From positions 1-36,440 of the forward strand of contig JAUSJM010000001.1 in the NCBI GenBank assembly GCA_030647265.1: 36,440 nt of DNA. Reading direction: 5' to 3'. Position numbers and translations under genes: made by a program. The notes under the pieces are model-generated. The model was not told the origin of the DNA. It ran no database searches and worked only from the letters and a program-made list of their open reading frames with translations. Source of the stretch: a bacterium (GTDB taxonomy: Bacteria > Patescibacteriota > Microgenomatia > Daviesbacterales > UBA10151). Positions 22,146 through 33,808 of the stretch are shown piece after piece (the first letter of the stretch is position 1; every line of letters begins with the position of its first letter).

Positions 22146-24251
22146 TTATTTTTTTGGTTTGGTCCAGGAGGCAAATTTGCAGTTTGGGTAATTTTTACAT
22201 CCATAAAAAGGCCTGCCTTTTTTAGTTTTTCTAAGGACTACCTCTCCCCCGCAATCGGGACAAGGGATATCCAGCTTTTCCTCCAAATTTTCCGTGTGTT
22301 TACATTCAGGGAAACCGGTACAAGCCAAGAACTTTCCAAACCTCCCATATTTAATTTGTAACTTTTTCCCACATTCAGGACAATCTCTATCCACCACCTC
22401 AGCTTCTATCTCTACTTTTCCTGCTGTCTCTTCCACCTCTTCCAGCTTTTTAGAAAAAGGCTCATAAAATTCTTTAATGGTGGGTCTCCATTCTCTTTCC
22501 CCCCGGGCTATCTCATCCAGCTCATCCTCCATTTGGGCTGTAAAATCATAATCCAAAATATTAGCAAAATTCTTCTCTAAAAAGAGAATCACTGCTATCC
22601 CCAAAGGAGTAGGAAAAAACCTTTTTTCTTGCCTTTCCACATAAAACCTATCTAAAATAGTAGCCAGGATGGAGGCATAAGTAGAAGGCCTGCCAATCCC
22701 CAGCTCTTCCAGTTTCTTAATCAAGGAAGCATCATTGAACCGGGGTGGTGGTTCGGTAAAATGCTGCCCGGGAATCAGCTTTAGAAGCTCCAGCAGCTCC
22801 CCAACTGTTAACTCCGGTAAAGCTTGCCCACCCTCTTCCTCACCTTCTTCCACCACCTTCCCATAAACCTTCAACCAACCTTCAAACTTAATGACACTAC
22901 CGGTAGCTCTAAAAGTATAAGAGTTAGCTGTCACATCCACTGTAGTTTGATCTGAGATTGCCTCCTTCACCTGGGAAGCCACCATCCTTTTCCAAATCAG
23001 GTCATAAACTCTTAGGTGTTCCCGAGTTAACCCTTCCAGATTTTTAAACTTCTCCGAGGTGAGTTGGATGTTGGTGGGCCTGATAGCCTCATGAGCCTCC
23101 TGGGCTACTTTGGATTTAGTTTTATAAAGCCTGGGAGAGGGAGGGAGGTAATTTTTTCCCAGGTTTTGTTCAATAAAACTTCTGGCTTGTTTTAAAGCCT
23201 GGTCAGATAAATTTACAGAATCAGTTCTCATATAGGTAATCAAGCCTCTCTCATATAAAACCTGGGCTATCATCATGGTTTTTTTAGCTGTTAAGCCCAA
23301 TCTGTTAGCAGCAGCCTGCTGGAGAGTAGAGGTGGTAAAAGGAGGGGCAGGATATTTTCTGACCTCTTTTTGGGTAACTTTAGAAACTTGATACTCTGCT
23401 TTTTCCAAAGCTTTGAGGTGTCCTTCTGCTTCAGCCGAGGTTTTAATAGCCAGCTTCTTGCCATCTTTTTCTACTAAATTAGCAACAAAGCTATTAGGAA
23501 GTAACTTCGCGAGGGGTGGCGCAGAGGAGAGATCTCGGGCGTCGACCGCAGCGAGCGAAAGCGAGCGAGGACGCACCTGAGATACCGAAGCGACAGGACC
23601 CCGAGCAGATATCAACTCCGCTTCGATACTCCAATATTCTACCGGTTTAAAAGCCTCAATCTCCCTTTCCCTTTCTACTATTAACCTCAAAGCTACAGAC
23701 TGTACCCTGCCGGCAGAAAGCCCACTTTTCACCTTTTTCCAAAGCAGGGGGGAAAGTTTATAACCTACCAACCTATCCAGAACTCTCCTGGCTTGTTGGG
23801 CGTCCACTAACTTAATATCCAAGTTTCTGGGATTATCAAAAGCCTCTTTAATAGCTTCTTCAGTAATCTCATGAAAAACCACTCGATGGATCTGGTTTGT
23901 AGTTTTTGGTTCATAGTTCATAGTTTTTTTCTTCTTACCAGAAACCCCGAACCCTGAACTAACTAACTCTTTTATATGCCAGGCTATGGCTTCTCCCTCC
24001 CGATCAGGGTCTGTGGCCAACCACAAAGTTTTAGCCCCCAAAGCTTCTTTTTTTAATTCATTAACCCTCTTAATTTTATCCCTGGGAATGATATATCTGG
24101 GATTAAAGTTGTTCTCCACATCAATCCCTAGATCAGCCTTAGGCAAATCCCTGACATGCCCCATCGATGCTTCTACCTGGTACTTGCTTCCCAAAAACTT
24201 GGAAAGGGTCCGAGCTTTAGTTGGTGATTCCACAATTACCAGGTTTTGCAT
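22146..24251 (-). CDS. topA: DNA topoisomerase I
   Basis: 701 aa type IA enzyme relaxing negative supercoils. Toprim domain at the N terminus (LVIVESPTKARTL, residues 4-16; ATDPDREGEAIAWH about 79-92), RVQSVALRLIVERE, the catalytic Tyr in RGLITYMRTDSVNL, and two C-terminal four-Cys zinc ribbons (CPECGKK...CTGFPEC and CPDCGGE...CKNYPNC). Two extra segments interrupt the family pattern: residues about 98-119 (heptameric repeat DNA) and about 214-249 (GC-rich palindromic DNA). Both keep the frame and lie between conserved blocks, so the enzyme is probably active. Confidence 0.97.
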   Translation of the reverse strand: MQNLVIVESPTKARTLSKFLGSKYQVEASMGHVRDLPKADLGIDVENNFNPRYIIPRDKIKRVNELKKEALGAKTLWLATDPDREGEAIAWHIKELVSSGFGVSGKKKKTMNYEPKTTNQIHRVVFHEITEEAIKEAFDNPRNLDIKLVDAQQARRVLDRLVGYKLSPLLWKKVKSGLSAGRVQSVALRLIVEREREIEAFKPVEYWSIEAELISARGPVASVSQVRPRSLSLAAVDARDLSSAPPLAKLLPNSFVANLVEKDGKKLAIKTSAEAEGHLKALEKAEYQVSKVTQKEVRKYPAPPFTTSTLQQAAANRLGLTAKKTMMIAQVLYERGLITYMRTDSVNLSDQALKQARSFIEQNLGKNYLPPSPRLYKTKSKVAQEAHEAIRPTNIQLTSEKFKNLEGLTREHLRVYDLIWKRMVASQVKEAISDQTTVDVTANSYTFRATGSVIKFEGWLKVYGKVVEEGEEEGGQALPELTVGELLELLKLIPGQHFTEPPPRFNDASLIKKLEELGIGRPSTYASILATILDRFYVERQEKRFFPTPLGIAVILFLEKNFANILDYDFTAQMEDELDEIARGEREWRPTIKEFYEPFSKKLEEVEETAGKVEIEAEVVDRDCPECGKKLQIKYGRFGKFLACTGFPECKHTENLEEKLDIPCPDCGGEVVLRKTKKGRPFYGCKNYPNCKFASWTKPKK
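23505..23612. repeat. GC-rich palindromic insertion inside topA
   Basis: About 108 nt, coding for residues about 214-249 of TopA. ATCTCGGGCGTC near 23542 pairs with GACGCACCTGAGAT near 23580 with small bulges; the outer arms (CGAGGGG and CCCCGAG) also pair roughly. The loop holds a mirror repeat GCGAGCGAAAGCGAGCG. G+C is visibly far above the rest of topA. It contains GTCGAC like the element at 5090-5168. Behaviour resembles palindromic elements that insert in frame into Rickettsia genes. Confidence 0.6.
23897..23959. repeat. degenerate 7-nt tandem repeat inside topA
   Basis: Nine successive heptamers on the plus strand: TTGTAGT, TTTTGGT, TCATAGT, TCATAGT, TTTTTTC, TTCTTAC, CAGAAAC, CCCGAAC, CCTGAAC. 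Total 63 nt, which is both 9 x 7 and 21 codons. It encodes the Lys-rich stretch between AIAWHIKEL and HRVVFHEIT of TopA, where other TopA proteins are shorter. Confidence 0.6.
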
Positions 24252-24305: not shown

Positions 24306-24764
24306 TTAAATAGCAGCTGATCTACGAACTGAGGGTTCAAGAGCAGACAACTTAGGACCAAAAAGTCTTCTGTAAACTTCAAGGTATTTAGCTATAGTCA
24401 TTTCTACAACATCATGAGGAAGCTCGGGAGCAGGAGGCTGTTTATCCCAACCTGTAGCAGCAGCCCAGTCACGGACATATTGCTTATCAAAGCTTGGCTG
24501 AGATCTACCTGGTTGGTATCCTTCTAACGGCCAAAATCTGGAGGAATCAGGGGTCAAAAATTCATCTGCTAAAACGAGGGTTCCATCAGGCCTAAGACCA
24601 AACTCAAATTTTGTGTCAGCAATAATAATCCCTTTTTCTAATGCAAGTTTATTTGCTCGGAGATAAAGCGCCATTGAGAGATCTCTTAACATTTCCGCCA
24701 AAGTAGGGGCATCCATATCAGGAAGTTCTCGGCGGAGTAATTCAGTCATCTGTCCAAAAGTCAA
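24306..24764 (-). pseudogene. purC: purC (SAICAR synthetase) C-terminal half, 5' truncated
   Basis: The open frame holds about 150 residues that match the second half of SAICAR synthetase: IIIADTKFEFGL, LADEFLTPDSSRFWP, GRSQPSFDKQYVRDW, PPAPELPHDVVE. The ATP/CAIR-binding first half (about 150 residues) is absent from the window. In frame upstream of the first usable codon the triplets still read H-H-D-T-N-L-T-F-G-Q-M, like the region before this point in intact enzymes, and then hit TAA at 24782-24780. So coding ancestry runs past the last possible start (ATG 24749 or TTG 24764), which argues for a broken gene. No other purine gene is nearby. Confidence 0.7.
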
Positions 24765-24840: not shown

Positions 24841-25236
24841 ATGGCTTCTCTAGAAGTTAGGGAAACGCTTCACCAGCTCCCTGCTTCTTTTCCTTCTGAG
24901 CTTATTATTAGAAGAACCATCCCTGGCGGTATAAATGGAAACGATGGAACTTTTCAAGTTGATGTCCCATGTAATAGTGATTTTTGTGTCCCTCAGGAAA
25001 ATCCAGCTTTTAACACAGTATCAACTATCATTCGCTGTATAGGATGTAAATATGAATTCCCGGTGGAATTCAGTCCTAATCAAAAAAGTTTATCACCTCT
25101 ACCTTGCCCCTTTCGAGAAAGAGTGTTGGTAGTAGTCGTCTTAAATAATGTTCGTGATTCTATTCTAAGAAATCCTGACCTAGACCCGGAATATCGGGAT
25201 CAACTACTAACCAGTAGTAGCTTAATTAGGGGGTAA
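24841..25236 (+). CDS. Cys-containing hypothetical protein
   Basis: 131 aa. Five Cys at residues 44, 49, 66, 69 and 89; C-N-S-D-F-C, C-I-G-C and a lone C-P suggest a small zinc site. The N-terminal 40 residues are mixed, and residues 95-131 look helical and polar. No signal peptide or membrane helix. Its 3' end overlaps the converging membrane-protein gene by 11 bp. It lies at the breakpoint of the truncated purC and may have come in with the event that broke it. No family recognised. Confidence 0.65.
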   Translation: MASLEVRETLHQLPASFPSELIIRRTIPGGINGNDGTFQVDVPCNSDFCVPQENPAFNTVSTIIRCIGCKYEFPVEFSPNQKSLSPLPCPFRERVLVVVVLNNVRDSILRNPDLDPEYRDQLLTSSSLIRG

Positions 25237-25909
25237 GTTCAATTCTGTATTGTAAAGAACGGCTTTCAGTAACCCTGCTGGATCCTATATGTCCTGCTAA
25301 ACATTCTAAGACCCCAGAACCTTCATAAGTACCCAGATCTTTCTTTGGGTTTATGTAAAGCCGATCATAAACAATCAAACCCCAAGATCTAGGACCCTTA
25401 GATTTAGTAAAACCCCCTGAAGAATTAAAGAAACCATCACTTTGTACTCCATTAAGATATCTCACCTGCCATCCATAAGAACCATCGGGGCACTCTGCAA
25501 GCTGTAGCCAATCACCAAAGACCAAGCCATTTACAGCTTTCCCTCGAGATAAAGTCGCTTCAACAACAAGAGGTTTCCTACCAGCAACAGGAGTAGGTTC
25601 CAACATCCCACGTCTAATGTAGTCCAACTCTTGGGTGGGAGTGGGAGCAGGAATTTGAACCACTCTTGGTTTTTCCGAGGCAGAAGTAGCTAATATTGGA
25701 CCAGGTCTGGACTCGAAAAGCGGCAAAGAAGCAAGGGTCATAAACCCAACTACACCAGTTAACGCCACAACACTCATCGCTACCGCAGTCCTTACTCCGC
25801 AGCTGCCAACTTCAGAACTTACCCACCGGGCTCGGCCCCTAAACTTTCTTAAAACATTTTTAACAGTCTCGAGACCGTTCTCTCTATTGCTTGTTTCACC
25901 CTCAACCAT
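25226..25909 (-). CDS. single-pass membrane protein with extracytoplasmic domain
   Basis: 227 aa from the ATG at 25909; a TTG at 25945 would add 12 residues but is a -35 box (see promoter). Residues 1-36 are polar and basic, residues about 38-62 form one membrane helix (TAVAMSVVALTGVVGFMTLA), then a Pro/Thr-rich linker (about 70-95) and a C-terminal domain of about 130 residues with Trp and Gly and two Cys, ending in strand-like segments. Topology suggests the domain is outside. The domain may be a small beta fold, possibly SH3-like (VNGLVFGDWLQLAECPDGSY), but this is only a shape impression. Function unknown. Confidence 0.65.
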   Translation of the reverse strand: MVEGETSNRENGLETVKNVLRKFRGRARWVSSEVGSCGVRTAVAMSVVALTGVVGFMTLASLPLFESRPGPILATSASEKPRVVQIPAPTPTQELDYIRRGMLEPTPVAGRKPLVVEATLSRGKAVNGLVFGDWLQLAECPDGSYGWQVRYLNGVQSDGFFNSSGGFTKSKGPRSWGLIVYDRLYINPKKDLGTYEGSGVLECLAGHIGSSRVTESRSLQYRIELTP

Positions 25910-25916
25910 GCCTAGT

Positions 25917-25945
25917 ATTTTAGCCTTTCTCTGTCTTAAAGTCAA
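25917..25945 (-). promoter_or_regulatory. promoter of the membrane-protein gene, leaderless start
   Basis: Minus strand: TTGACT, exactly 17 nt, TAAAAT, then 7 nt to the ATG at 25909. It shows that the apparent TTG start is the -35 hexamer. Confidence 0.65.
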
Positions 25946-25948
25946 AAA

Positions 25949-28468
25949 CTATGAGTTAAGGAGCTGCTGGGAAGCGATAAACTTTTCTCCTTTGGGAAGT
26001 TTGTTTTCCAAAATCATCACCGATAACCTGGCTTCCAAAGTGTCCTGAATTAACCTTCTTAAAGGTCTGGCCCCTAAAACCGGATCATAGCCTTTTTGGG
26101 CTAAAGCTTGAATTAGTCCTGAATCAAAATCCACCTCAAAACCCTGTTCCTTTAACTGTTTTTGTAACCCTGCCAGTTTTATCTGGACTACCTGCTGGAG
26201 ATCAGAAGGTGAAAGAGGTTTAAAGAGAACTACATCATCAAACCGATTTATTAACTCCGGCTTAAAGATAGTTAGCAGCTCCCCGCTCACCTGCTTCTTT
26301 AAAGCCTCATAACTCATTCCAGTCCCCAACCCCTTTGCGATGGTTAAGCTGGCAGCATTGGAGGTAGCGATAATAATAGTGTTGGTAAAATCCACCGTTC
26401 TCCCTGAACCTGAGGTTAACCTCCCATCATCTAATACCTGAAGGAAAAGAGTAAGAATTTTAGAATCAGCTTTTTCAAACTCGTCTAAAAGGATTAAAGT
26501 GTATGGCTTATTCCTCACCTCTTGGGTTAGCAGCCCTTCATTGTTAGTATCTCCAATTAACCTGGAAATGGCTTCAGCCGTTTGATATTCTGACATATCC
26601 AAACGGTAAAAGTTACCTCTGCCCTGGAAGTAGGTTTGGGCCAAAATTTTTGCCAACTCTGTCTTTCCAACTCCGGTGGGTCCCACAAAAAGGAAGGAGC
26701 CAATGGGCCTGTTTTTATCTCTGAGCTGGGCAGCTGATCTTCTTAAGGCCTTGGCCACCGCCTCCACTGCCTCCACCTGATCCACCATAGTTTGATGGAT
26801 AATCCTTTCCAGGTTCAGAAGCTGGGTCTTTTGTTGTCCCTCCACCTCACCGATAGGGACATTAACCCTTTCTTTGACCACCTTTTCCACCACCGGGCGG
26901 TTAATCCAGCCATCTTGTGCCACTGCCAAACACTCTTCAAAAACCTGCAACGCTGCATCCGGCATCACCCTTTCATGAAGGTACTCCTTAGCAAGATGGG
27001 CCATCTCTTTAATGGCCAGCAGGGTAGTTTTCACCTTTCGATACCTCTCATGGATAATGGCCTGGTTTTTTAAGATATCTACCGTTTCTATTTCCGTGGC
27101 CGGGGGAAGCTCTATCTTAGTAAAGAGTCTTACTAAAGCCCCATTTTTTTCTAAAATCCTGGTAAAATTACTCGGCTCGGTAGTAGCTAAAAACTGGAAA
27201 TCCTCCGATTCAATGTAGGGCAGCATTAAGGAGTAGAGGTTAAAAGAAGTTGCAGCCTCTCCGATCCCCATATCCTGGATTTCATCTACAAAGACAATGA
27301 TGTTTCCGGAGAATGATGCTTCCTCAAAGACCTCCTTGACCTTGGCCGCCAACTCCCCCTGAGTTTGGACCCCGGTAAGCAGCTTGGTTAAATCCAGTCT
27401 CATCAGCCTTTTGGTAGCCAAAGCTTGGGGAGCATCACCGGAAACAATGACCTTAGCCAGATAATTTACCAAAGCACTTCTCCCTGCTCCCGGTTCTCCC
27501 ACCAACACTACATTCCTCCCTTTTTCCATGGATAAGATGCTCATCACTTGGGCCACTTCGTGGGTTCTGCCCACAAAATCAGGAATATATTCCCCGGCAG
27601 CTTTCCTGGTCAGGTCTTCGGAGACAGAATCTAAGCCAGGGGTAGGAACCCCCAACCACCCCCGGTTCACCCCCCGAAGGTGTTTGACCCGGAAATCCTC
27701 ATCCCATAAAGGCACCATCCTCCATTCCCTCGTTCTTCTCTGGAAAAAATCCACCGTATCCACAAAATCCTCCACCTGTAACCCCAGCTTCTCCAGCTGC
27801 CCCTCGATACCGGGAGTAGACATCAAGGTTGCCACAAAGAAATGTTCAGGCTTAAGATAGGGCACTTTCAAGTTTCTTCCCAGCTCCCAAACCTTTTGCA
27901 GCACCTCTTTTTCCGGACACTGCAGGGAAAGCTTATTTAAGCCTTCCAGAGTTTGTTCCAGATAAAGGGCCAGATTTTTTACCCCTTCAGATTTCAGAAG
28001 CTTCTCTGCTTTTAAATCAGACCGTTTTACAAAACTGGCTTGCCAGACCCCTTCCACCTTTTTCACCTGCCAGATTTTTTTATGGGGGTGGGAAAGGAGG
28101 TGGTTTACAAAAAGCACTACTCCTGAAAAGATCAGGCCCTGGGAAAGAAGTGCCAAATAATCTTTGAGGAAAAAGACTAAAACAGGAAGCAGAAACCAAT
28201 ATAAACCCACTATAAAAATGAAGATGGTGGTAAAAATAAAGGCAAAGCCTCCCATCACAATCCGTGAGCCCCGGAAGAAGAAACTTAACATCCTTCCGGT
28301 GATCGTAGAGTCATGAAAAAGAGGGGCAAAAAGAAGTTTGAACATTAAACCTACTGCCAAATCCTCTTCTAAATATTGGAGGGAATTTCTCCAGACCCGC
28401 AAAAATACCACCAGGCTTTCCGGATACCAAAATCTTATTAAATGGACAGGTATGGACAGGTATTTCAT
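25949..28468 (-). CDS. membrane-anchored two-domain Clp-type AAA+ ATPase
   Basis: 839 aa. Residues about 72-123 hold two membrane helices close together, which soluble ClpA/B/C lack. A degenerate Clp-N-like helical region follows (about 160-245). First AAA+ domain: VGRTHEV at 299-305, Walker A G324-EPGAGR330-S with Arg in place of the essential Lys, Walker B FVDEIQDM. Second domain: GPTGVGKTE at 596-604, Walker B LLDEFEKAD, sensor region IIIATSNAAS, FKPELINRFDDVV and GARPLRRLIQDTL. The loop that carries IGF/LGF for ClpP docking appears deleted. The first domain may not hydrolyse ATP. It sits TAG-ATG behind a 120-aa membrane protein and probably acts as a membrane unfoldase or disaggregase. 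Confidence 0.9.
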   Translation of the reverse strand: MKYLSIPVHLIRFWYPESLVVFLRVWRNSLQYLEEDLAVGLMFKLLFAPLFHDSTITGRMLSFFFRGSRIVMGGFAFIFTTIFIFIVGLYWFLLPVLVFFLKDYLALLSQGLIFSGVVLFVNHLLSHPHKKIWQVKKVEGVWQASFVKRSDLKAEKLLKSEGVKNLALYLEQTLEGLNKLSLQCPEKEVLQKVWELGRNLKVPYLKPEHFFVATLMSTPGIEGQLEKLGLQVEDFVDTVDFFQRRTREWRMVPLWDEDFRVKHLRGVNRGWLGVPTPGLDSVSEDLTRKAAGEYIPDFVGRTHEVAQVMSILSMEKGRNVVLVGEPGAGRSALVNYLAKVIVSGDAPQALATKRLMRLDLTKLLTGVQTQGELAAKVKEVFEEASFSGNIIVFVDEIQDMGIGEAATSFNLYSLMLPYIESEDFQFLATTEPSNFTRILEKNGALVRLFTKIELPPATEIETVDILKNQAIIHERYRKVKTTLLAIKEMAHLAKEYLHERVMPDAALQVFEECLAVAQDGWINRPVVEKVVKERVNVPIGEVEGQQKTQLLNLERIIHQTMVDQVEAVEAVAKALRRSAAQLRDKNRPIGSFLFVGPTGVGKTELAKILAQTYFQGRGNFYRLDMSEYQTAEAISRLIGDTNNEGLLTQEVRNKPYTLILLDEFEKADSKILTLFLQVLDDGRLTSGSGRTVDFTNTIIIATSNAASLTIAKGLGTGMSYEALKKQVSGELLTIFKPELINRFDDVVLFKPLSPSDLQQVVQIKLAGLQKQLKEQGFEVDFDSGLIQALAQKGYDPVLGARPLRRLIQDTLEARLSVMILENKLPKGEKFIASQQLLNS
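28443..28462. repeat. 10-bp perfect tandem duplication at the Clp gene start
   Basis: ATGGACAGGT occurs twice in direct succession on the plus strand, covering codons 3-9 of the Clp-type ATPase (Y-L-S-I-P-V-H). Ten is not a multiple of three, so gaining one copy would have shifted the frame; the start codon or upstream sequence must have adjusted. Confidence 0.5.
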
Positions 28469-28831
28469 CTATTTTGCTCTCACAACATTTCCTTTCAGAT
28501 CCAGTTCTACAAAGTGTCGGGCCCGGCCTTCCTGGAAAGCCACACATTGGTTTTCCGGTAAATCATCAACGGGCTGGCGGGGACTGTGGACCAAATCCGC
28601 GACCCACCCCGGCATCAGATCGTTGGACAAACACGGTCCGGTAGATAAATCCACTCCTTCAGTAACCCTTCTTTGATAAACCAACTGGGCTACCGCTACC
28701 GCCCGATCTCCTTCCTCAGAGACACCCTTCTTATACCCTTCAGGTTTTTTGCTCAAAATAGTCACTAAAAAGGCGGTAGTTAGAACAACAATTAAGCTCA
28801 GTAAAAAGAGTTTCTCTCTTTTGGTTATCAT
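28469..28831 (-). CDS. small membrane-anchored protein with two Cys, upstream of Clp
   Basis: 120 aa. Residues 8-27 form an N-terminal membrane helix or uncleaved signal (LFLLSLIVVLTTAFLVTIL). The rest is a compact domain of about 85 residues with GPCLSNDL (C67), a WVADLVHSPRQPVDDLPENQ block and C96, then FVELDLKGNVVRA. The two Cys may form a disulfide outside the cell. I recall similar short proteins in Microgenomates but cannot name a family. The stop abuts the ATG of the membrane Clp ATPase (TAGATG), so the two are co-translated and may form one membrane machine. Confidence 0.75.
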   Translation of the reverse strand: MITKREKLFLLSLIVVLTTAFLVTILSKKPEGYKKGVSEEGDRAVAVAQLVYQRRVTEGVDLSTGPCLSNDLMPGWVADLVHSPRQPVDDLPENQCVAFQEGRARHFVELDLKGNVVRAK

Positions 28832-28848
28832 TTTATATTACCTTTATC

Positions 28849-29949
28849 TTAGCAAACTCTGACATAATTTCCTCCACCCAAATTTTTTACCACTCCGAAA
28901 ATTTCCATCTTAATCAAGGCAGCGGAAACCTGAGCAGCACCAAGACCCAGCTCCCTACAGATCTCATCAATGTGTTTTGTTTCTCTTTGTAAACACTCCA
29001 CAATTCCTCTCTCTGCTTCTGTAAGTTTCACCTCATTTTTCACTCTTAACTCTGCACTCTGCACTCTTTCTAGTCCCAGCTCTTCCAAAATCTCCTCAGC
29101 TTTAGTGACAAGTCTTGCTCCCTGCTTGATTAATACTGAAGGGCCTTGGGACAAATCAGAGGTTATGGGACCGGGAACAGCAAAAACTTCCCTTCCTTGC
29201 TCCAGGGCACACTTGGCAGTAATAAGTGATCCTGAATCTTCTGCTGCTTCCGTCACCAGGGTTCCCAAAGAGAGCCCGGAAATAACTCTGTTTCGGGCAG
29301 GAAAATTACCGGGCAATGAGGGATGGTCAGGAGGAAACTCACTAATCACTGCTCCCTGACCTTGGGCAATAAGCCTTGCTAGCTCAGTATTTTCCGGGGG
29401 AAAGATATGTTTTAAACCTCCTCCTAAAACAGCCAGGGTCCGGCCCTTATTTTCTAAAGTTGTTTTATGGGCCTGGCTATCCACTCCTCTGGCTAAACCT
29501 GAGATGATGGTTAAACCAGCCAAGGAGAGTTCCTGAGTAAATTTTTCTGTCACCAGTCTGCCGTAAGAGGTCATCTTCCTTGTTCCCACTACTGCCAAGG
29601 CTCTCTCATCCCGGGGTAAGATCTCACCCCAGTAATACAAAACTGAGGGAGGGTCGTAGATCTCTTTTAAAAGCCTGGGATATCCTTCATCAAAAATGGT
29701 TAAGACTTTGATACCAGCCTTTTCCATTTCCTGGGCATATTTCTCTGGGTCCAACTTCTTCCTGGTTTCCAGAAACAGCTCCACCACTGGCTGAGGAACT
29801 CCCAAACTTTTAATCTCTTTTTCTGAAGCTTCCCACACCAGTTTGGGATCTCCAAAATGGTCCAGCAAAGCCTTAAGTCTCACTGGTCCTAAACCATTAA
29901 CAGAATGTAAAGCCAATAAATATTCAATATTTTTCATCTTCATTTTCAT
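28849..29949 (-). CDS. dprA: DNA processing protein DprA
   Basis: 366 aa. An N-terminal helix-hairpin-helix/SAM-like part (LHSVNGLGPVRLKALLDHFG) is followed by the Rossmann-like domain: VVGTRKMTSYG, IISGLARGVDSQAH, LGGGLKHIFPPEN, FPARNRVISGLS, EDSGSLITAKCALEQGREVF. A C-terminal winged helix follows (about 305-366). It loads RecA on incoming single-stranded DNA. The linker before the winged helix carries a 42-nt heptameric repeat. The start is one of three ATGs in ATGAAAATGAAGATG; the Shine-Dalgarno AGGTG lies in a hairpin supplied by the neighbouring transposase end. Confidence 0.96.
   Translation of the reverse strand: MKMKMKNIEYLLALHSVNGLGPVRLKALLDHFGDPKLVWEASEKEIKSLGVPQPVVELFLETRKKLDPEKYAQEMEKAGIKVLTIFDEGYPRLLKEIYDPPSVLYYWGEILPRDERALAVVGTRKMTSYGRLVTEKFTQELSLAGLTIISGLARGVDSQAHKTTLENKGRTLAVLGGGLKHIFPPENTELARLIAQGQGAVISEFPPDHPSLPGNFPARNRVISGLSLGTLVTEAAEDSGSLITAKCALEQGREVFAVPGPITSDLSQGPSVLIKQGARLVTKAEEILEELGLERVQSAELRVKNEVKLTEAERGIVECLQRETKHIDEICRELGLGAAQVSAALIKMEIFGVVKNLGGGNYVRVC
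29032..29073. repeat. degenerate 7-nt tandem repeat inside dprA
   Basis: Plus strand heptamers CTCATTT, TTCACTC, TTAACTC, TGCACTC, TGCACTC, TTTCTAG. Total 42 nt, 6 x 7 and 14 codons. It encodes the polar linker (V-Q-S-A-E-L-R-V-K-N-E) between the Rossmann domain and the winged helix. Confidence 0.55.
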
Positions 29950-29997: not shown

Positions 29998-30645
29998 TTA
30001 TTCTGATTCCACCAAAGCTCGTTCTAGATATTTAATTGATCTTCCATAGTCTTCTTGATCTAACACAAATCGCTGATATTCTCCCATCCCTGTAAATTGA
30101 CCTAGAATAGGATGACTTTGACAAAAACCCTCTTTCAGTCCAACAAACTCTGGATATGAGGAAAACTTATAACGAGTTAGATCTTTAGTTAAATAATCTA
30201 CCAAGGGATTTAGGTGAATATAACGAGATAGATGAAGTAGTTGCTCATCATCTTCAATCCTTTTAGCTTTAAAAGCACCCTGAAAGAGAGGCCCAACTCG
30301 CACATGTCTGGTATTAAAGTATTTCGTGTAACTATTTACAAGTTTGCTGATAAATTTAGAAATTCCACCTTCATCAACCTGTCTTAAAAGAAAATGAAAA
30401 TGGTTTGGCATTAAACTGAAACAGACAATCTCTACTAAAATAGCTTCGTCTTTAACTCGTTGCTTTAAAGAAGGACTGTTCCTGGTAGAAAATTTAGAGG
30501 GAGGATTTTTAAAACGGTAGTAATCAATGGTATGTAAAAAACGCTGGTAATCTCTATCTGTAAGAAATATGCTTCTTTTTTCGACACCCCGATTATAAAC
30601 ATGGTAAAACTCACCATTAGCAAAAACTGCCTGATTATAGGGCAT
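29998..30645 (-). CDS. REP-associated tyrosine transposase (Y1, HUH type)
   Basis: 215 aa. HUH single-strand transposase of the IS200/RAYT group. N-terminal FYHVYNRGVEKRSIF, the metal-binding H-x-H in LMPNHFHFLLR (H82, H84), the catalytic Tyr helix with NSYTKYFNTRHVRVG (Y106 most likely), LFQGAFKAKRI and RYIHLNPL are all intact. It stands alone with 16-bp inverted flanking repeats and nested hairpins, between mrdA and dprA, all on the same strand. Members usually process REP hairpins; here it may have acted on the local palindromic elements. It looks active rather than decayed. Confidence 0.95.
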   Translation of the reverse strand: MPYNQAVFANGEFYHVYNRGVEKRSIFLTDRDYQRFLHTIDYYRFKNPPSKFSTRNSPSLKQRVKDEAILVEIVCFSLMPNHFHFLLRQVDEGGISKFISKLVNSYTKYFNTRHVRVGPLFQGAFKAKRIEDDEQLLHLSRYIHLNPLVDYLTKDLTRYKFSSYPEFVGLKEGFCQSHPILGQFTGMGEYQRFVLDQEDYGRSIKYLERALVESE

Positions 30646-30716: not shown

Positions 30717-32573
30717 CTATTCTCCTAAGCTTTTACCTGAACCAGTAGCTTGCTGGTTTGGATCCAAACTTTTAAGGTTATTTTTATCAGGGTTAAAGTA
30801 CCAGATATAAACCTCTTTAGTAATGGGGGCAGCCACGCTTGAACCTTCACCTCCGGCTTCCACTAAAACTGTCATGGCAATTTGGGGGTAAGGCAAAGGG
30901 GCATAAGAAGTATACCAGGCATGGGTGGCATTTTTAGGATCACCAAACTCAGCGGTTCCGGTTTTCCCGGCGGTAGGAATAGAAAAGGTAAAGAAGGGCC
31001 AGGCTGTTCCACCTGTCTTTGGAACCTCAGTTAATCCTTGTTGTATCAGCTGGACATCCTCTTTTTTGAAAACATTCTTTTCCAAAGGACCAAAGTGAAA
31101 CTCCTTGGTCTGGTTCCCCCAAGGATCGGTAATTTTAGTAGCCAGATGGGGAATGTTCACCACTCCGTCAGCAGCTGCGAAAGCTGTCTCCCCCAAAATC
31201 TGCATCGGGGTAGTAAGCAAAAATCCCTGGCCGATGGCCATATGCAGAGTATCTCCCGGATACCACCCTTCCCCATAATTTTCTCTTTTCCAGGCATCAT
31301 CGGGAACCAGTCCTTTAGCCTCACCGGGTAAATCTATCCCCGATTTTTCCCCAAAACCCAACTTTTTAGCAGTTTCCCCCAAAGCTTCCACTCCCACCCA
31401 CTCACCTACTTTATAAAAAAAGATGTCATTGGAACGCTGGAGAGCTTTTACTAAATCTACCACCCCTTCTTTTCTGCCATACTGGGTAAAGTACCAGTTG
31501 GCAAACTGGTAGGGGCCCAAAGATATTACACCGGTGTCTTCAATCTTCGTCTGGCTGTTAATCTTACCGGAAGCAAGCCCGGCTAAGGAAGTGGTAATTT
31601 TAAAGGTCGAACCGGGAGGATAAGTCCCGGATATAACCCGGTTTAAAAGCGGAGAGGAAGGGTCTTGAAAATAGGAGCTCACTTCCTCGTTTCTTTTAGG
31701 GTCAGTAAAAGCATTACTGTCAAAAGAGGGCCAGGAAACAAGGGCCAAGATTTCCCCGTTACGGGGATTTTCCGCTACCAGTGCTCCGCAACAGGATTTT
31801 GCCTTCTCTACCCCGTTTTTCAAAGCGGTAAAGGTAATTTTTTGCAGATCCCCGTCAAGTGATAAATAAATGCTGTGTCCGGGAATGGGATCTATGCGCC
31901 GAAGAGTCTGAAGTTTTTTCCCTGAGGCATCAACCTCCACAATCTCGGCCCCGTCTTTACCCCGCAGAGTGCTTTCATAAACTTGCTCAATACCTGCCCG
32001 TCCGATCCTGTCCCCTAACCGATAATCCCGGTACTGATCGTTTTTTAACTCTGTTTCGGAAATTTGACCCACATATCCTAAAACATGAGCGGTAACAGAC
32101 CCTAAGGGGTAGAAACGGATAGCGTCAACCTCCAACTCCTCAAAATTGGGATCATCTTTGGCCTCCAAAGCCAAAGCCTCATCTCGACTAATAAAGTGAT
32201 CTTTAAATCTAAAGCCGGGATTATTTTCCGCCAAGACCTTGCCGTTGCGGTCATAAATTACTCCCCGCGGAGCATGGATGACCCTCATCTGAATCCGGTT
32301 GTAATCTGCCAACTGCCTGTTGTGAGCGCCGGTAACAATCTGTAAGCTGAAAAGTTTTAAAAAGAGAGCGAAAAAGACAAACAAGAAAAGGCAAGATATC
32401 ACTACCAGTCTCCAGGCAGAGGCCGGGGCAGAAAATTCCGAGGGTTGAAAGTTGGGCAATAAGTTGTCAGCCCATTCAGAAGTCCTGATCTTTTTCCCGG
32501 TTCCCGAGTCACTGTTGACTTTTAGCAAGTTATCAGAAAAAGCCAGTCCCAGTCTCTTTCTTTTGTACTTCAT
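30717..32573 (-). CDS. mrdA: penicillin-binding protein 2 (elongasome transpeptidase)
   Basis: 618 aa class B PBP. Membrane helix at about residues 56-79, dimerisation domain beginning at RVIHAPRGVIYDRNGKVLAE, transpeptidase domain with the serine motif G321-S322-T-F-K325, S381-N-D, and AGKTGTAEF near residue 535. It cross-links peptidoglycan during elongation with RodA and MreC. It overlaps mreD by 4 nt, the usual mreC-mreD-mrdA order; mreB and rodA are not adjacent. An N-terminal cytoplasmic segment of about 50 residues is longer than in E. coli. Confidence 0.96.
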   Translation of the reverse strand: MKYKRKRLGLAFSDNLLKVNSDSGTGKKIRTSEWADNLLPNFQPSEFSAPASAWRLVVISCLFLFVFFALFLKLFSLQIVTGAHNRQLADYNRIQMRVIHAPRGVIYDRNGKVLAENNPGFRFKDHFISRDEALALEAKDDPNFEELEVDAIRFYPLGSVTAHVLGYVGQISETELKNDQYRDYRLGDRIGRAGIEQVYESTLRGKDGAEIVEVDASGKKLQTLRRIDPIPGHSIYLSLDGDLQKITFTALKNGVEKAKSCCGALVAENPRNGEILALVSWPSFDSNAFTDPKRNEEVSSYFQDPSSPLLNRVISGTYPPGSTFKITTSLAGLASGKINSQTKIEDTGVISLGPYQFANWYFTQYGRKEGVVDLVKALQRSNDIFFYKVGEWVGVEALGETAKKLGFGEKSGIDLPGEAKGLVPDDAWKRENYGEGWYPGDTLHMAIGQGFLLTTPMQILGETAFAAADGVVNIPHLATKITDPWGNQTKEFHFGPLEKNVFKKEDVQLIQQGLTEVPKTGGTAWPFFTFSIPTAGKTGTAEFGDPKNATHAWYTSYAPLPYPQIAMTVLVEAGGEGSSVAAPITKEVYIWYFNPDKNNLKSLDPNQQATGSGKSLGE

Positions 32574-33010
32574 CTTCCTATCTTTAGTTTAATATCTTTT
32601 TTGGGGATAAATCTTTCTTCCCAAAAAAGCAGTAGCAGGTAGATAGGAAAGCTTAAAAGTGCTTGTAAGATGAGGGTTAAAAAATCAATGCCCGAACCGA
32701 AATTCCTCACCAATTGACCAAAAAGCAGAGCCCCAAAAGAAAGAGGAACAACCACTAAAAACTGGGAAGAAACTTGAGTCTTTCTCACCATCTCCACCAA
32801 AACTACCGCTAGAAGATAGACCAAACTTAAAATACCCAAAGGTAATCCCAGAAGGTAAGAAACCAGTATTCCGAAAGAAAATGCCAGCCAAAGATTTTGC
32901 CTGTCACCAACAATAAAACTTCGGCAGATTAAAACCACCAGTACTAAGTCCCAAGAGGTAAGGGTGGACTGTAAAAAACTTAAACCCAGTAAACTAATGA
33001 CCAGTAACAT
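32570..33010 (-). CDS. mreD: rod-shape protein MreD
   Basis: 146 aa, almost entirely hydrophobic with four to five membrane helices and a short basic C-terminal tail (EERFIPKKDIKLKIGR). Sequence conservation of MreD is low, so the call rests on topology, length and position between mreC and mrdA, with one-base and four-base overlaps. Polytopic component of the elongasome in the inner membrane. Confidence 0.85.
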   Translation of the reverse strand: MLLVISLLGLSFLQSTLTSWDLVLVVLICRSFIVGDRQNLWLAFSFGILVSYLLGLPLGILSLVYLLAVVLVEMVRKTQVSSQFLVVVPLSFGALLFGQLVRNFGSGIDFLTLILQALLSFPIYLLLLFWEERFIPKKDIKLKIGR

Positions 33011-33801
33011 TAAGGACTCCTTAAGATGAACACTGTATCCATATCAATAATCTGAAAAAGGGGTTCAACTTTGGCAGTTTTAAAAACCTCGTTCTGGCGT
33101 TCATCAACCGATACGACTTTTCCCATAATCAGTCCTTTTGGTAAAATTCCTTCTGTCCCTTCAGAATAAACCAGGTCTCCCACACCTATCTGTTCCTGGT
33201 GTAAGATCTTATCCATTAAGATTTCTGAACCAAACTGCCCTTCCAAAATCCCTTTGGCCCTGCCGGAAGGATCTTGGGAAAAAACAGCTATCTTAGAATC
33301 CGGATCAAAAGACAGCATCACCTCAGAAGTTTTAGGACTAACCCTCATTATTTTTCCCAAATAGTTATCTTTATAAACTACTGCCCAGGTTTCCTTTATT
33401 CCGTCATCAGAACCTTTATCTAAAGTTATAAACCTGCCGGCAGAGATTACTCTGGAAGGTAAAAGATCATAGGTTTGGGGGTTTAATTTAGCATATTGGT
33501 CCACTAAAGTTTCTTCTTCTGAAAGTTTCTGTCTTAAAGAGGCATTTTCTGTCATCATCTCTCCCAGCTGAATTTTTAAAGCCTTAAATTCTTGGGCAGA
33601 CTGCCTGAAAGAAAAGAGCAGTTCTGATTGTTTTTTAAAAGAGTTCCCGGATTGGTACAGACCATACTGGACAGGGACAGTTAAAGTCTGAACTAAAGAT
33701 TTAGGGAAATTTAAAGTTCCTAAAGAGTCCAAAAGGGTTAAAAACAAAGAGGTAAAGACTAAAAACAGCAGCAACTTTAAATCCTGGGGCACTACTTTCA
33801 T
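33010..33801 (-). CDS. mreC: rod-shape protein MreC
   Basis: 263 aa from the ATG at 33801 (a TTG one codon earlier is unlikely). One membrane helix near residues 8-26, a coiled coil at about 55-95 (QSAQEFKALKIQLGEMMTEN), then the beta-rich MreC domain with LPSRVISAGRFITLDKGSDD, GIKETWAVVYKDNYLGK and GDLVYSEGTEGILPKGLIMG. It organises PBP2 outside the membrane. First gene of the block. Confidence 0.95.
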   Translation of the reverse strand: MKVVPQDLKLLLFLVFTSLFLTLLDSLGTLNFPKSLVQTLTVPVQYGLYQSGNSFKKQSELLFSFRQSAQEFKALKIQLGEMMTENASLRQKLSEEETLVDQYAKLNPQTYDLLPSRVISAGRFITLDKGSDDGIKETWAVVYKDNYLGKIMRVSPKTSEVMLSFDPDSKIAVFSQDPSGRAKGILEGQFGSEILMDKILHQEQIGVGDLVYSEGTEGILPKGLIMGKVVSVDERQNEVFKTAKVEPLFQIIDMDTVFILRSP

Positions 33802-33808
33802 CAAGCTA

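Follow-up and report, generated by a model that had tools for sequence, protein, structure and literature searches.

The accepted view of Clp/HSP100 rings is that they thread their substrates, with aromatic pore loops as the grip. Torsin is a eukaryotic ER protein that forms a single AAA+ ring without an arginine finger of its own and is activated by a cofactor of the LAP1/LULL1 type. It is a relative of Clp/HSP100 proteins that acts at a membrane and has no aromatic pore loops (PMC5425593). The locus that we analyzed belongs to a genome that its named relatives place in Ca. Daviesbacteria (Patescibacteria) and lies in a stretch of 36,440 nucleotides, referred to here as the window. On the minus strand, an open reading frame for a small membrane protein with two cysteines (120 aa; the Cys protein) is followed with zero gap, at the junction AAA TAG ATG, by one for a Clp-type ATPase of 839 aa, as described in the initial annotation. 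We found no paper describing this ATPase family in the open-licence literature, and the text of the Southlakia Tn-seq paper does not mention Clp. The features of the locus are collected in Table 1.

Table 1. Features of the locus and its conserved neighbours, with positions in the window.
Feature	Position	Strand	Basis
PBP2, mreD and mreC (elongasome genes), conserved upstream neighbours	30717..33804	-	Pfam, synteny
dprA, part of the conserved Daviesbacteria order	28849..29949	-	Pfam, synteny
Cys protein, 120 aa, with one membrane pass and two invariant Cys; lineage-specific neighbour	28469..28831	-	ORF, homologue alignment
Membrane-anchored, pore-loop-less Clp-type AAA+ ATPase, 839 aa	25949..28468	-	ORF; Pfam AAA_2 and ClpB_D2-small; orthologues; best fold match ClpC
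Membrane-anchor domain at the N-terminus, aa 1-130; encoded separately upstream in other Patescibacteria	28079..28468	-	conserved block, split form
Two predicted membrane helices, aa 67-125	28094..28270	-	hydropathy; AF2 helices 56-97 and 104-126
Clp N-domain-like region, about aa 150-250	27719..28021	-	hhalign against canonical Clp N-domains
Conserved linker preceding D1, HLRGVNRGWLGVPTPGLD, aa 263-280	27629..27682	-	residues invariant in same-family relatives
D1 Walker A, GEPGAGRS, Arg replacing Lys	27476..27499	-	alignment
D1 pore-loop site, GVQTQGE; KYRG aromatic missing	27353..27373	-	alignment
D1 Walker B, NIIVFVDEI; intact in this protein but degenerate in many others of the family	27278..27304	-	alignment
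D2 Walker A, GPTGVGKT	26660..26683	-	Lys 99/99
D2 pore-loop site, GDTNNEGLLT; PPGYVGY deleted	26525..26554	-	gap against ClpB/ClpC
D2 Walker B, TLILLDE	26480..26500	-	Glu 99/99
D2 arginine finger, NR of LINRFD	26243..26248	-	Arg 98/99, one gap
D2 sensor 2, GARPLRR	26054..26074	-	Arg 97/99, two gaps
topA, conserved downstream neighbour	22146..24251	-	profile match, synteny

The ATPase family and its membrane anchor

The Pfam domains AAA_2 and ClpB_D2-small were present in all 39 family members tested, the solved structures nearest to the ATPase by sequence are ClpB, ClpE and ClpC (PDB), and its AF2 monomer model (pLDDT 83.5) has a ClpC-like fold, with ClpC as the best match. It is the sole protein in its 785-kb genome that exceeds the AAA_2 cut-off, and it scores far under the NCBIfam cut-offs for ClpB (TIGR03346, 455 of 1232 bits) and ClpA (TIGR02639, 431 of 993 bits) as well as under that of the ClpV/TssH family (352 of 885 bits). 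A Pfam domain search found no M41 peptidase domain in it. The N region of the family is homologous to canonical Clp N-domains (hhalign probability 98.8%, E 6e-16), and the linker that precedes D1 carries the motif NRGW here and motifs of the NRAWTA and DKAMTA types elsewhere in the wide family, none of which occurs in a canonical control. To place the family, we used a single alignment of 99 members, comprising the window protein, 22 proteins from the same bacterial family and 76 from other Patescibacteria, together with 12 canonical Clp proteins as controls, of which ten come from Patescibacteria and the other two are E. coli ClpA and ClpB. A tree built on 549 AAA+ columns, none of them from the pore loops, separated the 99 members from the 12 controls with a support of 1.0, E. 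coli ClpA and ClpB falling on the control side, and the family is apparently a large, undescribed clade of Patescibacteria apart from ClpA, ClpB and ClpC. ClpP was not found in the ATPase's own genome, an absence that is tentative at 92% completeness, and it was found in 3 of the 57 genomes searched, leaving 54 without it. The clade and the near-general lack of ClpP both agree with the earlier description of a membrane-anchored Clp-type ATPase distinct from ClpAP and ClpCP.

The two membrane helices that had been proposed ahead of the AAA+ domains were recovered by hydropathy. The N-terminal domain has a conserved block of residues (F13 W14, E34 E35 D36, P49 L50 H52 D53, G58 and R66) and no Pfam match. 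A profile built from the first 150 residues of the ATPase picks up fused proteins of about 850 aa and numerous short ORFs (about 107-170 aa), the latter being the split form found in other Patescibacteria, where a small anchor gene stands directly before the gene for a same-family ATPase of ~900 aa. The next same-strand gene was the family ATPase in the first 20 split loci, two of which were cut by contig ends. A second sample, picked by the anchor profile alone, contributed a further 23 loci in which both genes were called, always adjacent; the rest consisted of seven fused genes, seven ATPases without a called anchor ORF, one locus at a contig end and one in which nothing was called. The anchor is therefore directly upstream and on the same strand in 43/43 split loci, and the constant partner of the ATPase is a membrane domain, separate or fused, and not the Cys protein. 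At the N-terminus of many split-type ATPases there is a zinc-ribbon-like motif, CxxC...CxxC (16 cases), ahead of membrane segments of their own; this start was seen in loci L172-L187, L220 and L241-L243 and is missing from the fused Daviesbacteria form.

At a threshold of E <= 0.001, the anchor profile matches 207 of 380 Patescibacteria genomes, that is, over half of those sampled; the weakest matches are partial, and nearly all the weak ones sampled also adjoin an ATPase. By hand count, a long match of at least 580 bits to the ATPase profile is present in 67 of 116 genomes, although this score is an imperfect discriminator because a Chloroflexota protein whose loops are normal scores 651 bits. 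Among the 41 Chloroflexota searched, the best readable ATPase matches have normal PGYVG or PGYIG loops, and a profile search of eight genomes outside Patescibacteria, run with no positive control, returned no anchor. The ATPase is missing from some Daviesbacteria, including the near-complete single-contig genome G003 (probably the same record as L083), so it is not universally essential.

Loss of both pore loops with retention of the D2 motor

At the level of sequence, the alignment demonstrates the loss of both substrate-gripping pore loops with the D2 motor kept, a combination that the initial annotation had missed. An aromatic residue or His occupies the D1 pore position in 0/99 family members and in 12/12 controls. 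The D2 position, which is Tyr in canonical Clp, is aromatic or His in 4/99 against 12/12, and is a gap in 51 of the 99 members; in the alignments with PDB structures, the gap of the ATPase falls exactly at the GYVG of ClpB, ClpE and ClpC. The D2 exceptions are three members with Tyr and one with His at or near the position, and a few retain the loop length. The D2 catalytic site is near invariant, the few departures from the counts in Table 1 being gaps. D1 is more variable, with its Walker B Glu kept in 54 members and its second finger Arg in 3 of the 99. The name unfoldase, given to the protein earlier, does not suit these data, as the aromatic pore loops required for threading are gone from both rings.

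Two further traits had been singled out in the annotation. The Walker A motifs read as stated, with Arg in the first and a normal second one, but the Arg does not define the family: the residue is Lys in 82 members and Arg in a minority of 17, which rules it out as a signature. Similarly, we found no [ILV]G[FL] loop between the sensor-1 and arginine-finger regions of D2 in the ATPase, and no IGF/LGF ClpP-docking loop in 78/78 readable family members. The loop is thus missing as claimed, but canonical Clp proteins of the same phylum are likewise without it, so its absence does not distinguish the ATPase and was discarded as a distinctive trait.

The Cys protein and the gene neighbourhood

The Cys protein has one membrane segment by hydropathy (aa 5-29), and Cys67, Trp76, Asp79, Pro84, Arg85, Asp89 and Cys96, among other residues, are invariant in 27 homologues, which bears out its description as a small membrane protein with two cysteines. 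Its AF2 model is confident (pLDDT 94.5); the fold has no PDB match below E 0.001, and the protein has no Pfam family. The domain belongs to a wider unnamed family, represented in Chloroflexi (loci L107, L109, L111, L113 and L124) and also in L115, L116, L127, L129 and L138, with the motif GPCL...W..D..H.PR...D....NQC...HFVELD..G and, in several Patescibacteria, lipobox-type N-termini.

The 34 genomes of the same bacterial family comprise 27 with both genes, three where the ATPase occurs alone (one of these lies at a contig edge), two with the Cys gene alone and two with neither. In the 27 Daviesbacteria genomes that have both, the genes are adjacent in 26 and 4 kb apart in one, and adjacency holds also where dprA is missing (L040, L044, L046, L055 and L060). 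The Cys gene was kept and the ATPase lost in G003 and G008 (see also L083 and L106), and the ATPase was kept and the Cys gene lost in G006 and G020. Outside the bacterial family, the homologues of the Cys protein are short proteins without a signal peptide in Chloroflexi and lipoproteins or single-pass proteins in other Patescibacteria, and an ATPase of the family was never found in the DNA retrieved around them. Since each gene occurs alone and the outside homologues have no ATPase nearby, the pairing is a real synteny of one lineage and not an obligate complex, a possibility that these data rule out. The co-occurrence and adjacency expected of a dedicated partner thus hold within Daviesbacteria but are not kept elsewhere, and the Cys protein is a syntenic neighbour, maybe helpful in Daviesbacteria, instead of a required subunit.

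The gene order in Daviesbacteria is mreC-mreD-PBP2-(dprA)-cys-ATPase-topA-pyrG. In the window, a Y1_Tnp gene (REP-associated tyrosine transposase-like, 29998-30645, minus strand) breaks this order between dprA and PBP2. Directly downstream of the ATPase, a gene at 25226-25945 (minus strand) codes for a protein of 239 aa with one membrane pass that matches nothing in Pfam or NCBIfam and was found at the same place in only two related loci (L034 and L035). At 24306-24764 (minus strand), just the C-terminal part of purC is open (152 aa from a TTG start, matching the last 92 Pfam positions), so that this SAICAR synthetase (PurC) gene looks truncated or interrupted.

Elsewhere the context differs. 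In split-type loci, the pair is often preceded by mraZ, rsmH and an FtsL/DivIC-like gene and followed by a glycosyltransferase-4 gene of the MraY/WecA type, which puts it in a division/cell-wall cluster. In one fused group, the neighbours of the ATPase are prfB, ftsK or ftsEX, along with a gene resembling that of a signal peptidase; the names ftsE, ftsX and TasA-like were assigned by eye from the sequence, with no profile match. In the fused-type loci L191, L194, L195, L197-L201 and L204, the genes ahead of the ATPase encode a small secreted 'AAFTDKGKVLGSTFSVGSA' protein, judged TasA-like by eye, and a protein resembling signal peptidase; the group could possibly be a secreted-fibre locus. Genes for pili or secretion do not recur in the neighbourhoods examined, which speaks against the pilus-type or secretion work envisaged earlier. 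The frequent presence of division and cell-wall genes (mraZ-rsmH-ftsL, ftsEX, ftsK, mreCD-PBP2) is suggestive of a link with the envelope. However, of the 76 loci only about 9 showed a context of the dcw type and 16 had prfB, and as the neighbours vary by lineage, the association could reflect general operon structure. The architecture of the family, meaning its Clp membership, membrane segments, loop loss, D2 conservation, split or fused anchor and gene context, is well supported.

Candidate mechanisms and comparison with known systems

A motor that is kept while the pulling loops are lost implies that the ATPase probably works differently from its relatives, and the disappearance of the gripping loops from both rings makes a non-threading action most likely. 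The precedent of torsin, together with lost loops and D2 hydrolysis, favours a remodelling motor tethered to the membrane. Our best reading, which we hold with about even confidence, is that the protein is a membrane-tethered, non-threading Clp/HSP100 motor that would remodel envelope or division complexes. The ATPase would be tethered to the cytoplasmic membrane by its dedicated anchor domain and, by homology, would form a two-tiered hexamer, in which D2, with all catalytic residues conserved, would bind and hydrolyse ATP and D1 would be mainly a structural or regulatory ring. Most likely no polypeptide would be threaded; changes of ring shape driven by D2 would be transmitted via the Clp N-domain and the membrane anchor, and this motion would assemble, disassemble or reposition membrane partners, most likely the cell-wall and division machinery. 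The hexamer, the non-threading action and the envelope role are what we infer here. A broader proposal, which we make tentatively and regard as somewhat doubtful, is that of a phylum-wide class of double-ring membrane Clp proteins that would have given up threading in parallel with torsins and would drive the assembly or remodelling of the cell wall and division apparatus of Patescibacteria.

The ATPase could still thread its substrates, as an unfoldase that pulls proteins out of the membrane and grips them by non-aromatic residues or by another part of the ring. A full double ring, an intact D2 motor, a Clp N-domain and the membrane location would all fit, and a few members retain long loops or a Tyr; nevertheless, the loop residue that is invariant in the controls is missing or changed in 95/99 members in D2 and in 99/99 in D1, often by deletion. 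Moreover, FtsH is a separate gene in the same genome and is present in 31 of the 32 genomes searched, so that membrane-protein extraction is already served by a machine, and we consider this explanation unlikely. A nucleotide-switched scaffold, a hexamer that organises envelope proteins and in which ATP hydrolysis merely resets the assembly with no mechanical remodelling, would account for the frequent catalytic degeneration of D1, the constant anchor and the envelope-gene context. It accords poorly with the almost exceptionless Walker A, Walker B, arginine finger and sensor 2 of D2, a conservation beyond the obvious need of a slow switch, and seems to us fairly improbable.

The model of the initial annotation, a single membrane complex of ATPase and Cys protein engaged in extraction, secretion or pilus-type work, draws on the adjacency of the two genes in Daviesbacteria, which persists without dprA. 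Against it stand the survival of each gene where the other is lost, the Cys homologues with no ATPase nearby in Chloroflexi and other Patescibacteria, and the lack of recurrent pilus or secretion genes, and we judge it very improbable. Least probable is that we are looking at a decaying Clp gene of little function: the missing pore loops and D1 motifs would suit decay, yet a D2 site strictly conserved over 99 sequences, the long open frames and the breadth of the anchor's occurrence leave that reading strongly disfavoured.

The family is of wider interest as a conserved machine, uncharacterised so far, that occurs in over half of the Patescibacteria sampled, a huge and uncultivated phylum. It often sits beside division and cell-wall genes, in tiny cells where envelope building is little known. 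As a widespread bacterial family with the motor kept, the grip lost and a membrane location set by its own anchor gene, it offers a bacterial setting in which the work of such a motor without threading can be tested directly.

Finally, the family can be set against the systems to which it is closest. It shares with ClpC, ClpB and ClpA (class I Clp/HSP100) a Clp N-like domain, two AAA+ domains, the D2-small domain and a ClpC-like predicted fold, and differs from them in its membrane anchor, the loss of the aromatic pore loops, a changed D1 finger, the lack of a ClpP loop and its separate clade. Like ClpV/TssH, the ATPase of type VI secretion, it is of the Clp family and works without ClpP, but it scores below that family's cut-off, is membrane-anchored and has lost the pore loops. 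FtsH is likewise a membrane-tethered AAA+ ring in bacteria, whereas the ATPase has no peptidase domain and is a double ring of the Clp type. With torsin it has in common that it is a membrane Clp relative without aromatic pore loops; unlike torsin, it is bacterial, has two AAA+ rings, its own D2 arginine finger (98/99) and a membrane-spanning anchor, and the two have no sequence link beyond their common Clp ancestry.
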